From the NCBI GenBank assembly GCA_011523115.1, contig WTHO01000090.1:1-12026 (forward strand): a stretch of DNA of 12,026 bases, read 5' to 3'. The stretch comes from Halieaceae bacterium. Lineage in GTDB: Bacteria > Pseudomonadota > Gammaproteobacteria > Pseudomonadales > Halieaceae. A program made the position numbers and the translations under genes. Shown here one piece after another: positions 2 to 3,906 of this stretch; within the stretch, counting starts at the first letter, position 1; each line of letters starts with the position of its first letter. The notes under the pieces were generated by a model. The model ran no database searches. It saw nothing but the letters and a program-made list of their open reading frames with translations, and had not been told where the DNA came from.

Positions 2-499
2 GATGAAACCAAGGTCATCGATTCCCGATTGGTGGCCGAGGGTGCTCAGGTTCGACGGCGACGCGAGTGCCTGAGTTGCACTGAGCGTTTCACCACCTAC
101 GAGGCCGCTGAGCTGGTGCTGCCACGCATCATCAAACAAGATGGCAGCCGCGAGCCGTTCGATGAGGAGAAGCTTCGCTCGGGTCTGCTTCGTGCGCTGG
201 AGAAACGCCCGGTGTCGGTTGAAAGTATCGAAGCTGAAATCGATCAGATCAAACATCGCCTTCGCGCGACGGGTGAGCGAGAGGTGCAGTCTCTTCAGGT
301 GGGCGAAAAGGTCATGGAGTCGCTGAAGGCGCTCGACCATGTTGCCTACGTGCGCTTTGCTTCGGTCTACAGAAGTTTTCAGGATCTGGCGGAGTTTCGC
401 GACGCGATTGAATCCCTTGAGGCTGAGCCGAGCCAGGAGCCGGAGGCTGAGCCGAGCCAGGACCTGGAGGCCGAGCCGAGTCAGGAAAAAGCGCCGTGA
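2..499 (+). CDS. nrdR: Transcriptional repressor NrdR, 5'-truncated by window edge
   Basis: NrdR is a zinc-ribbon plus ATP-cone repressor that senses adenine nucleotides and controls ribonucleotide reductase operons. The frame is open from base 2 (visible start [10 protein letters not shown]), so the true start and the first zinc CxxC, about 8 residues by comparison with E. coli NrdR, lie outside the window. The GTG at 29 is internal, not the start. The second zinc pair (C-L-S-C) and the basic RRRR stretch are visible. The ATP-cone follows, with [38 protein letters not shown] and [15 protein letters not shown]. The C-terminus carries an unusual Glu/Pro/Ser/Gln repeat tail that E. coli NrdR lacks (see the repeat entry). 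It is the first visible gene of the riboflavin run, and its TGA overlaps the GTG of ribD. Identification is very secure. Confidence 0.96.
419..490 (+). repeat. Three tandem 24-bp in-frame repeats in nrdR 3' end
   Basis: Three consecutive 24-bp units lie at 419-442, 443-466 and 467-490. Each encodes EAEPSQ plus two variable residues (EP, DL, EK). The first two units are nearly identical at DNA level, and the third differs mainly at synonymous sites and in its last codons. The units are exactly in frame and give an acidic, Pro/Ser/Gln-rich and probably disordered C-terminal tail on NrdR. The pattern suggests recent slippage or unit duplication. Confidence 0.9.
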
Positions 500-1623
500 C
501 CCATGACGACGATCGTGCGTGGATGGAACGCGCGATCACGCTGGGACGCACGGCCCGATATTGGTCGGCGCCGAACCCGGCAGTGGGCTGTGTCCTGTTG
601 CGAGACGGCGTCGTCCTCGGCGAGGGGTTCACCCAGCCTGCGGGCAGCGCCCATGCCGAAATCATGGCGCTTCAGTCAGCGCGGGACGCGCACGGCCCTG
701 AGGGCGTAGCCGGCGCGACCGCCTTCGTGACGCTTGAGCCATGCAGCCACGAAGGACGGACAGGCCCCTGCGTGGAGGCGCTGATTGAGGCGCGTATCGA
801 GCGGGCGGTGGTCGCCATCGAGGACCCCAACCCAGTCGTTTCTGGCCAGGGCCTCAGCGCCCTGCGCGATGCCGGTATTGCGGTGGAGCTGGGTAGCTGT
901 GCAGAGCAGGTTGAGCAGGATCTGGCGGGGTTCCTGCTGCGCATGCGTCGCGGTTACGGCCGCGTCACTCTCAAGCTGGCGACTTCTCTCGATGGTCGCA
1001 CTGCCATGGCCTCGGGAGAGAGTCAGTGGATTACCGGTTCATCCGCGCGCCAGGACGTGCAGCGACTGCGTGCCGAAGCGGACGTTATTGTGACGGGCAT
1101 CGGTACTGTTCTCGCGGATGACTGTCGGCTGACGCTGCGCGCCGACGCGTTGCCGCTGTCCGAGGCCGATAAGGCTCGGGCGCTGGCCCATGCACCCGCA
1201 CGGATGGTGTTGGACAGTCGTGCACGAACGCCACTGACCGCCCGGATTCTCGAGGGTGGATCGACGACCATTGTCACGACGGTCACGACGCAGCCGGGCG
1301 ATTTGGGAGCAGAGACAGAGGTCTGCCAGCTACCTGCGGATGCTGAAGGCCGGGTTGCACTGACAGAATGGGTGGATTTGCTCCGCGAGCGCGCACACAA
1401 CGAGATTTTGGTTGAGGCGGGCCCGACGCTGGCCGGCGCGATGCTGAAAGAGGGATGGGTGGATCGACTGGTGGTATATCAGGCGCCCAAGCTGTTGGGT
1501 GATGCGGCCAGGCCGATGGCAATCATGACAGCCGATGCCCTCGCTGAAGCGATCGAGCTCAACATTGTAGAAGTGACCCGTCTGGACACGGATCTGCGTA
1601 TCATTGCGACCCCGCGTGTGTGA
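496..1623 (+). CDS. ribD: Bifunctional riboflavin deaminase/reductase RibD
   Basis: RibD carries out the second and third steps of riboflavin synthesis in the cytosol: deamination of the GTP-derived pyrimidine and NADPH-dependent reduction of its ribosyl side chain. The protein is 375 aa, normal for the fusion. The N-terminal deaminase domain (about 1-145) has the zinc motif HAE at 53-55 and [11 protein letters not shown] with Cys83 and Cys92; the usual Pro before PC is Gly here. The C-terminal reductase domain has [20 protein letters not shown] (160-179) and [10 protein letters not shown]. The GTG start at 496 overlaps the nrdR TGA (GTGA), with an AGGAAA Shine-Dalgarno at about 483-488, which supports coupled translation. 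All visible catalytic features are present. Confidence 0.96.
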
Positions 1624-1672: not shown

Positions 1673-2284
1673 GTGTTTACAGGACTTATTCAGGCGGTCG
1701 GCCGCATTGCCGAGATTGAATCGGGCAAGCAGGATATTCGGCTTCGCATTGACACGGGAAAGCTACCGCTTGAAGGGGTCTCTCTTGGAGACAGTATTGC
1801 GACGAGCGGCGTCTGTCTCACGGTCACTGATTTACCCGGGGATGGCTTCTGGGCGGATGTCTCCCCCGAGACGCTGTCCTTAACGACCCTGGGCGGCAAA
1901 GGAGTCGGGGATCCCGTCAATCTCGAGACGTCCCTTACGCTGAGTACACCACTCGGGGGGCATCTTGTTAGTGGGCACGTAGATGGTGTGGGCCATGTTG
2001 AGCAGATCATCGAGGATGATCGGTTCTGGCGAGTCCGGATTACGTCGCCGGCAAATCTGGCTCGTTACATTGCGATGAAAGGCAGTATCTGTGTCGATGG
2101 CACCAGTCTCACAGTGAATCAGGTGGCGGGTAATGCCTTTGATCTCACCATTATTCCGCAGACCTGGGAGGAGACTGTCTTCAGCGAGTACCGGGTGGGT
2201 AGCCCCGTGAATCTCGAGGTGGATGTCATTGCGCGTTATCTGGAGCGGATGATGCAGGTCGATGCCGACAATGCCGAGTCGTAG
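1673..2284 (+). CDS. ribE: Riboflavin synthase alpha chain
   Basis: This enzyme dismutates two 6,7-dimethyl-8-ribityllumazine molecules to riboflavin and the pyrimidine precursor, the last step of the pathway. The protein is 203 aa with two lumazine-binding domains. The N-terminal repeat begins MFTGLIQAVG, with GVCLTV at about 47-52; the second contains GTSLTV at about 143-148. The linking motif GGHLVSGHVDGVG (95-107) is typical of the family. The start is GTG at 1673, chosen because MFTGL is the invariant family N-terminus and AGGAG lies at 1663-1667. The 49-base gap after ribD shows no recognisable FMN riboswitch. The symbol ribE follows Pseudomonas-type usage; E. coli calls it ribC. Confidence 0.96.
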   Translation: MFTGLIQAVGRIAEIESGKQDIRLRIDTGKLPLEGVSLGDSIATSGVCLTVTDLPGDGFWADVSPETLSLTTLGGKGVGDPVNLETSLTLSTPLGGHLVSGHVDGVGHVEQIIEDDRFWRVRITSPANLARYIAMKGSICVDGTSLTVNQVAGNAFDLTIIPQTWEETVFSEYRVGSPVNLEVDVIARYLERMMQVDADNAES

Positions 2285-2288
2285 CGAG

Positions 2289-3410
2289 ATGGCAGATTTC
2301 GCCGACATAGACAAATTGCTCAGCGAGCTGCGGCACGGGCAAAGCTGCCTCCTGTTGAACGACAACAGCGCGGGGGGCGTGACGGGTTTTGTGATGACGG
2401 CGGCAGAGCATTGTCAGGCAGACCATATTGCTTTTATGGCGCGTCAAGCACGTGGCTTGGTGTGTCTGGCTCTGACACCCCAGCGTTGCGAGGAGCTTGA
2501 GCTGCCTCTGATGGTGGAGGGCGATGACTCGCTGTCGCCCTTCACGCTGTCTATTGAGGCAGCTACGGGCATTGATACCGGTATATCGGCAGCGGATCGG
2601 GCGAGAACGGTTCAGGTGGCGGTCGATGCACTCAGTCAGCCATCCGATCTGGTTCAGCCTGGACACATCTTCCCGATTGCGGCAGCGGCTGGGGGTGTAT
2701 TGACTCGCACGGCGCCTGCCGAGGCGGCCGTTGACCTGACAACGCTTGCCGGCCTGACGCCGGCTGCCGTGTTTACAGAAGTATTGGATGGAGAGGGTGC
2801 TGTTGCCAGCGGCGACTATCTGGCCGAGTTCGCCGAGCGGCATGATGTGGTGGTTGGCCGGGTGTCAGATCTGGTGACTTATCGATTGGCGAATCAGAAA
2901 ACAGTGAGCACCGTTCGAAGTGGGGTGCTTCAAAGTCGCTACGGTCAATTTAAGGTGGCGGCTTATCAGGACACCATCCATCAGCGGGTCCACCTGGCCC
3001 TGACCGTTGGCGATATTCGCGCGGATCACCCTACGCTGGTGCGGGTCCACGTGACGGCGGTGTTTCGCGACCTAATAGGGACGACAATTGAGGGCCATGC
3101 GTCCTGGTCGTTTGATGCCAGCCTTCGCGCCATCGCTGAGGCTGATGCCGGAGTGCTGGTGTTACTCAGCAAACCCGAGACGGCCGAGGATTTGATTTCA
3201 GGTATCGATAGGCTGTTGGGGGCGCCGGAGGCTGAGCTCTCCGGCAGTGCGGATGCCTACAATCAGATCGGGATGGGCGCGCAGATATTGCGTGATCTGG
3301 GCGTGGGTCAAATCAAGTTGATGGGCGCGCCCCTCAAGTACAATGCGCTCGCGGGCTTCGGACTCGAGGTTGTCGAGTTCGTCGCGCCACCCGAATCGGA
3401 AGGCCTTTGA
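2289..3410 (+). CDS. Degenerate RibB-RibA fusion (DHBP synthase-like plus GTP cyclohydrolase II-like)
   Basis: This 373-aa protein occupies the ribBA slot between ribE and ribH. The N-terminal half (1-200) aligns clearly with 3,4-dihydroxy-2-butanone-4-phosphate synthase through QARGLVC, ISAADRARTV, QPGHIFPI and AAGGVLTR. However, the catalytic acidic loop (consensus DDEDRENEGD) reads NDNSAGGVTG at residues 24-33, and the metal-binding GHTEA reads APAEA at 142-146. The loop around residues 76-84 is about two residues short. The C-terminal half is a GTP-cyclohydrolase-II-like fold (VHLALTVGDI, LVRVH, GAQILRDLGV) in which the three zinc cysteines are Ala257, Glu268 and His270. The frame is intact and base composition matches its neighbours, so it is not an obvious pseudogene. 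The ATG at 2289 is preferred over the upstream in-frame ATG at 2262, because homologues begin at this point and 2262 would overlap ribE. The fold is secure, but neither canonical activity seems likely. Confidence 0.9.
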   Translation: MADFADIDKLLSELRHGQSCLLLNDNSAGGVTGFVMTAAEHCQADHIAFMARQARGLVCLALTPQRCEELELPLMVEGDDSLSPFTLSIEAATGIDTGISAADRARTVQVAVDALSQPSDLVQPGHIFPIAAAAGGVLTRTAPAEAAVDLTTLAGLTPAAVFTEVLDGEGAVASGDYLAEFAERHDVVVGRVSDLVTYRLANQKTVSTVRSGVLQSRYGQFKVAAYQDTIHQRVHLALTVGDIRADHPTLVRVHVTAVFRDLIGTTIEGHASWSFDASLRAIAEADAGVLVLLSKPETAEDLISGIDRLLGAPEAELSGSADAYNQIGMGAQILRDLGVGQIKLMGAPLKYNALAGFGLEVVEFVAPPESEGL

Positions 3411-3423
3411 GGAATGATGCGGT

Positions 3424-3906
3424 ATGTCAGGTAAAGGGATCGATAACTCCGCTGAGCAGCTGTCAGGTAACGATGGCGGCTATGTCATTGTGGTGACGCG
3501 CTGGAACACGGCAATCGTAGACGGCTTGCTCGGTGGCGCGATGCAAGCACTGCGCAGTGTGGGGATTACCGATAACCAGATCCGGGTCGTCACTGTGCCC
3601 GGTGCCTTTGAGATTCCTCTGGCCTGCAAAGCTGCTGCAGCGCGCGGTGATTGTGATGCGGTCATTGCATTGGGCGCTGTCATCCGGGGCGGGACACCTC
3701 ATTTCGAATATGTGGCGGGGGAGTGCACGCGCGGCATTGGCGAGGTGGCCCTCAATTCGGGCAAGCCGGTGGCCTTTGGTGTGCTGACAGTTGACACCTT
3801 GGCCCAAGCTGAGGAACGGTCAGCAGAGAATGACGAAAACAAGGGCGCTGAGGCTGCCTTGAGTGCGGTAGAAATGGTCAATCTGATCAGGGCGCTGCGT
3901 AGCTGA
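3424..3906 (+). CDS. ribH: 6,7-dimethyl-8-ribityllumazine synthase
   Basis: Lumazine synthase condenses the pyrimidine from the RibA/RibD branch with 3,4-dihydroxybutanone phosphate from RibB. It usually forms pentamers or 60-mer capsids. The protein is 160 aa. Visible motifs are TRWN (the substrate-stacking aromatic is Trp27 where E. coli and Pseudomonas have Phe), [10 protein letters not shown], and [17 protein letters not shown] with catalytic His93. The C-terminal loop, usually AGTKAGNKG, reads SAENDENKG at 133-141 but keeps Arg132 and Lys140. The start is ATG at 3424, with GAGGA just upstream at the end of the preceding gene, 13 bases away. Its TGA overlaps the nusB ATG (ATGGC within TGATGGC). 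Confidence 0.95.

Follow-up and report, generated by a model that had tools for sequence, protein, structure and literature searches.

Complementary active-site lesions in two co-resident RibBX proteins of Halieaceae and a possible mixed-dimer DHBP synthase

Why would a riboflavin operon keep, in good order, a RibB-like gene whose metal site has gone? The question arises from a stretch of 12,026 nucleotides of a Halieaceae bacterium (contig WTHO01000090.1; hereafter the window), which reads nrdR-ribD-ribE-[operon RibBX copy]-ribH-nusB-thiL, the names being given from sequence and gene order. A preliminary description of the third rib gene, here called the operon copy, had reported NDNSAGGVTG (2358-2387) in place of the acidic metal loop of DHBP synthase and APAEA (2712-2726) in place of GHTEA, together with a shortened substrate loop, an unbroken frame of 373 codons and base use like that of its neighbours. 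All of these observations were borne out: the substrate loop has two residues fewer than that of E. coli RibB, and GC3 is 0.647 for the operon copy against 0.611-0.705 for the neighbours. The features are collected in Table 1, and residues are numbered as in E. coli RibB (V. cholerae number minus 1) unless otherwise indicated.

Table 1. Features of the operon RibBX copy and of the adjoining rib genes (positions in the window).
Feature	Position	Strand	Remark
Operon RibBX copy (P0001)	2289..3410	+	373 aa; lid-donating subunit only under the preferred explanation
Loop 1, own-side metal loop (E. coli D33-D42)	2358..2390	+	Lost
Part of loop 2 (substrate loop), residues 76-86 of P0001	2514..2546	+	Shorter by two residues than its E. 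coli counterpart
Loop 4, partner-side lid, with T97, G98, S100, D103 (E. coli T107, G108, S110, D113)	2562..2597	+	Kept
Loop 5, LVQPGHI, partner-side	2649..2669	+	Kept
APAEA replacing GHTEA, His153 gone	2712..2726	+	Lost
Loop 3, own-side, residues 164-174 of P0001	2778..2810	+	N177/D179/M182/R184 positions altered
RibA-like X domain; Cys residues of GTP cyclohydrolase II absent	2910..3386	+	Domain match and alignment
ribD	496..1623	+	Context; named by sequence and gene order
ribE, riboflavin synthase	1673..2284	+	Context; named by sequence and gene order
ribH, lumazine synthase	3424..3906	+	Context; named by sequence and gene order

By architecture the operon copy is a RibBX protein. It matches PF00926 with 189.5 bits and PF00925 with 119.2 bits, and it hits 10 NCBIfam models, in every case below the curated cut-off (e.g. 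387.7 versus 513 bits). In the alignment its X domain is without the Cys residues that are present in M. tuberculosis RibA2, and a RibA-like domain of this Cys-less kind is normal for RibBX. The AlphaFold2 model of the single chain (pLDDT 88.5) finds its top fold match in the RibBX structure 6mnz of A. baumannii (TM 0.82/0.90), which is the best match by sequence as well as by fold and is alike in size and in its two domains, whereas superposition on the RibB structures of V. cholerae (4p8e) and E. coli (1g57) mostly gives 1.6-1.7 Å over ∼199 columns. The modelled RibB fold is intact and shares lid loops 4 and 5 with 1g57 and 4p8e, but differs from them in the absence of the loop 1 metal site and of His153, and in its shorter loop 2. 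Judged by its residues, the operon copy would not qualify as a functional RibB domain, since both the loop 1 metal/substrate residues and His153 are gone, while Thr107 and Asp113 of the lid are in place. As it lacks catalytic residues that define DHBP synthase, it should not by itself be given that name.

The expectation of another ribB elsewhere in the genome was correct. In the genome that holds the window (G000, a draft of 2.08 Mb that is 79% complete), a second RibBX gene with DDEDRENEGD and GHTEA lies behind a thiolase gene on contig C231 (5672-6769), and a stand-alone RibA that retains its Cys residues lies on contig C109; the second RibBX copy has, however, lost residues of the lid. An FMN riboswitch, suggested as a possible mark of such a gene, is not seen at gathering score either within the window or at loci L062, L003, L121 and L134. 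Operon and second copy belong to different operons and are only 37-38% identical, which counts against the pairing proposed below.

The named relatives of G000 are Luminiphilus and other Halieaceae, and its genus is Luminiphilus-like; full-length operon copies of the same genus are 55-98% identical to the window protein and stand in the same operon, and the copy of HTCC2080 is identical to that of the same-genus genome G016. At the operon loci examined, ribE and/or ribH flank the gene as far as the contigs extend, and RibBX of other families occupies the same position in the rib operon. Among 120 family genomes (matches tallied by eye), 103 have at least two PF00926 matches, 15 have one and two have none. 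Each of the seven one-contig genomes carries exactly two PF00926 genes, one per type, and the seven single-match genomes examined, out of the 15, are each accounted for by missing contigs. No RibH match is found in G080, G102 and G108, the one match in G088 is under the cut-off, and the RibH of G141 is divergent and lies outside the operon; the operons thus seem to be absent from these drafts. G092 is without the thiolase gene that neighbours the second copy elsewhere, and in G119 a contig end falls within that gene. A second family of the same order (f9) has both genes in 4/6 genomes.

A few loci depart from this arrangement. The same-genus draft G149 has three PF00926 matches on contigs C61 and C53, two of them strong enough for the second type, which may represent a real extra copy or mixed bins. 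In G032 (contig C2, 1173-2275), three adjacent pieces that are 70-75% identical to the window protein occur in addition to a full-length operon copy and resemble a frameshifted second operon copy. Locus L239 (2-373; G092 contig C181) is a thiL fragment next to the operon copy of G092 that shares 92% identity with the window ThiL over 124 aa, whereas the RibH and NusB of G092 are 62-72% identical; the contig end is possibly chimeric or foreign.

The significance of the lid residues follows from the known architecture of the enzyme. DHBP synthase is mostly a homodimer whose active site is built from two subunits, with loops 1-3 and His153 from one and lid loops 4-5 from the other, as described for V. 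cholerae RibB (PMC5228156). In the molecular dynamics of that work, loops 1 (34-41), 2 (82-98) and 3 (175-185) come from the monomer itself and loops 4 (103-111) and 5 (132-138) from the other, loop 4 being the proposed lid (PMC5228156). In V. cholerae numbering, mutants of E39, E41 and H154 lose activity, Asp114 bonds to Thr108, and Thr108 is strictly conserved, the T108S form of the M. jannaschii enzyme being inactive (PMC5228156).

We compared losses on the two sides of this shared site. The standard was given by 93 RibBX rows of other lineages, in which a column counted as conserved when a single residue filled 90% of rows or more; these columns were sorted by the published loop map, extended by G41, D42, H153 and T154 for the own side and by D113 for the partner side. 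Identical rows were counted once (74 operon, 54 second and 93 other; 71, 53 and 92 when collapsed at >99% identity), and the C-terminal fragment L044 was excluded, as were L239 and L240, which duplicate operon copies among the 74. The operon copies have lost 15/25 conserved columns on the own side and 2/14 on the partner side, whereas the second copies have lost 0/25 and 6/14, respectively (Fisher p = 0.00028, a value that, like those that follow, is post hoc, treats columns as independent and gauges the pattern without proving it). When only the published ranges are used, the losses are 12/21 and 2/13 for the operon copies and 0/21 and 5/13 for the second copies (p = 0.0018), and the split is present separately in the genus, the other genera and f9 (p = 0.0002, 0.001 and 0.001). 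None of 192 circular shifts of the loop map matches the observed fit (best shift 17, observed 19), and without T107 and D113 the second copies have still lost 4/12 partner-side columns. Columns with a single residue in at least 98% of rows amount to 5/40 on the own side and 11/17 on the partner side in operon copies, and to 34/40 and 6/17 in second copies. The idea of a mixed pair was formed after part of these data had been seen; 4/5 second copies of f9 were added afterwards, as were the f11, f40 and second f4 genes.

The key residues divide in the same manner. The full set R37, E38, E40, D42 and H153 occurs in 0/74 operon copies and 54/54 second copies, whereas Thr107 together with Asp113 occurs in 74/74 operon copies, 93/93 other RibBX and 0/54 second copies. 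At these two lid positions the second copies of Halieaceae have Pro (48/49) and Gln (49/49), and those of f9 have Pro and Gly. Single RibBX proteins of other families keep the RibB metal ligands that the operon copy has lost, and all seven key residues are found in 91/93 rows. The two exceptions are L171, which has one unread base, and L181 (Pseudomonas vancouverensis, NZ_RRZK01000038.1, 3501-4580), a RibBX gene with no rib genes seen adjacent, a degenerate loop 1 (DDEHNGEGS), GHVEA, VGILN in loop 3 and a loop 4 that is still intact; this copy may have degenerated independently.

The extent of the own-side loss varies among operon copies. R37, D42 and H153 are absent from 38/38 distinct sequences of the genus, where the E at column 38 of eight rows results from a different loop alignment. 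In the other genera (31 rows), His153 is present in 31 and E40 in 28, while D42 and E38 are gone in 31/31 and R37 in 29/31. The 5/5 operon rows of f9 keep T107, D113 and H153 without R37, E38, E40 and D42, and the 5/5 second copies of f9 show the opposite. Within the operon copies, loss of His153 is, as far as these sequences indicate, peculiar to the genus, and operon copies outside it, with His153 and mostly E40 kept, may retain some activity.

The residues that the operon copy has lost are those of its own site, the residues that it has kept are those it would lend, and the lesion of the second RibBX is the opposite, as would suit one subunit of a hybrid enzyme. From the sequences, the two co-resident paralogues carry complementary lesions, and we infer that they pair, that neither is active alone and that the pair makes DHBP. 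We consider it probable that they form an obligate mixed dimer in which a single hybrid active site is complete and the operon copy is the lid-donating subunit. The operon copy, its own site dead, would lend loop 4 (Thr107, Asp113) and loop 5 to the second RibBX, which would give loops 1-3, the metal ligands and His153, its own Thr107 and Asp113 having been lost. Of the two sites of the mixed dimer, one would then be whole and the other would consist of two dead halves, and either homodimer would have two incomplete sites. The leftover site of two vestigial halves may have turned regulatory. The preliminary description had seen in this gene a pseudoenzyme that may regulate or scaffold RibE/RibH. 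A dead active site in a kept fold stands, but a free-standing role on RibE/RibH is doubtful, as the operon copy keeps the lid residues lent to a partner and the second RibBX has lost exactly those; a free-standing regulator of RibE/RibH would leave the lid lesion of the second copy unexplained.

The ancestry of the two genes was examined in a tree from which the loop columns were omitted. The operon copies of Halieaceae and f9 fall together (100/99) and adjoin RibBX of f47, f31, f32, f28, f24 and f30, although this join (98/75) is not strong, and the second copies are placed near f11, f4 and f40. A recent duplication within the family was rejected, since a single clade of operon and second copies fails the AU test (p = 0.00038, loop columns again omitted); the tree and this rejection together indicate that two old RibBX lineages coexist in Halieaceae and f9. 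The intact single-copy f11 sits between the second copies of f9 and those of Halieaceae (94/86), an order in which the split may have occurred twice, although keeping the two groups of second copies together was not rejected (AU p = 0.24).

Relatives with a single gene provide natural controls for both lineages. A single PF00926 gene is found in 6/6 genomes examined from f4, f11 and f40 on the side of the second copies, and in 10/10 genomes from f47, f31, f32, f30, f24, f28 and f18 on the side of the operon copies. In the 15/16 of these genes that were read (all but that of G356), the metal loop, His153, Thr107 and Asp113 are all kept. For f40, the two best-matching of nine sampled genomes (G345 and G364) were read; the others (G171, G207, G235, G262, G285, G306 and G326) give, unlike these two, only weak RibBX matches (1e-55 to 1e-78) and may have a RibB that lacks the X domain, or some other diverged form. 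No split is seen in five further proteobacterial genomes that have two PF00926 genes, R37, E38, His153 and Thr107 being present in 10/10 copies. Thr107 is likewise present in 30/30 sequences of a phylum sample, which comprises the best-scoring 30 of the matches listed and leans to conserved proteins (L289 and L295 are common to both sets). The Asp113 position is less constant: Glu occurs in L290 and Gln in L293 among the 10 copies, and Glu in L275 of the phylum sample. Asp113 is thus not strictly required, and the case rests on the change of Thr107 to Pro. L293 (G396 contig C11, another proteobacterium) keeps Thr107 and its genome has a second, ordinary copy, and this natural D113Q protein has led us to lower slightly our confidence in the wider reading that covers both families. 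We still regard it as somewhat favoured that Halieaceae and the second family of the same order carry out an essential vitamin step by an obligate mixed dimer of two separately inherited RibBX lineages, each without the opposite half of one interfacial site.

The most serious rival is that the second copy is active by itself, as a homodimer whose unusual lid works, the operon copy being a pseudoenzyme regulator that acts chiefly through its X domain. The near-fixation of Pro and Gln in the second copies of Halieaceae could speak against the mixed dimer in this way, as a new lid and not a lost one, and Gln at position 113 occurs naturally in L293. The X domain is also slightly better kept in the operon copies (32/33 conserved columns in the genus and in the other genera, versus 30 and 31 in the second copies), although this difference is small, and in the S. 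oneidensis RibBX the X domain is reported to modulate RibB activity (PMC10012899). Both points are compatible with the mixed dimer too, in which the operon copy may additionally bear regulation. Against a working Pro lid stand the constancy of Thr107 in the other RibBX, in the best-scoring phylum matches and in the other two-copy genomes, and the inactivation of the M. jannaschii enzyme by the change of T to S (PMC5228156). An active homodimer would moreover leave unexplained why the lid is the best-kept part of the operon copy (11/17 versus 5/40 columns), and why lid loss is seen solely where an operon copy exists. We regard this alternative as rather unlikely.

It is still less likely that the operon copy has adopted a different reaction or ligand in a remodelled pocket, independent of the second copy. 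Within the genus, loop 1 is conserved in its new form, with S27, G29 and T32 (P0001 numbering) invariant in 14 aligned operon copies, and selection on the gene is strongly purifying, both of which speak for this reading. However, loop 1 is very different among the genus, the other genera and f9, as expected of a loop freed from its former role; no new catalytic motif was recognised in the operon copy, and the lesion of the second copy would be left unexplained. Both genes are under purifying selection (Nei-Gojobori, pairs with dS <1.5), with dN/dS of 0.012-0.084 (median 0.049, 15 close pairs) for the operon copy and 0.033-0.096 (median 0.038, seven pairs) for the second copy. A decaying gene or an assembly error, which the loss of the metal site in the presence of a second copy might suggest, is considered refuted by these ratios, the unbroken frame, the kept operon flanks, 43 columns that are invariant in an alignment of 94 rows (operon copies account for 71) and the same losses in all distinct sequences of the genus, in agreement with the earlier view that the active site was lost inside a preserved, constrained fold.

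We know of no mixed RibB dimer. In the deoxyhypusine synthase of trypanosomes, an inactive paralogue completes the active site of its partner at the subunit interface; enzyme and fold are different there, and the RibBX pair differs also in stemming from separate lineages and not from a recent duplication. Among RibB/RibA fusion proteins, the Arabidopsis paralogues RIBA2 and RIBA3 are reported to have lost one of two activities (PMC3509567). Each of these lacks a whole enzyme activity, whereas in the Halieaceae pair the losses fall on opposite halves of a single active site.

If the mixed dimer is correct, DHBP synthase has come to depend on two genes in one family of marine bacteria. The operon gene, whose annotation is that of a bifunctional enzyme, would then encode a subunit that is needed although catalytically dead, and the second copy, which passes for a normal RibB on its metal site, would have no activity by itself. 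Where a pseudoenzyme is found together with a true enzyme elsewhere in the genome, both copies should be checked for lesions. The two genes would also offer a testable case of the passage from homodimer to obligate heterodimer, in which relatives of both lineages represent the state before the change.
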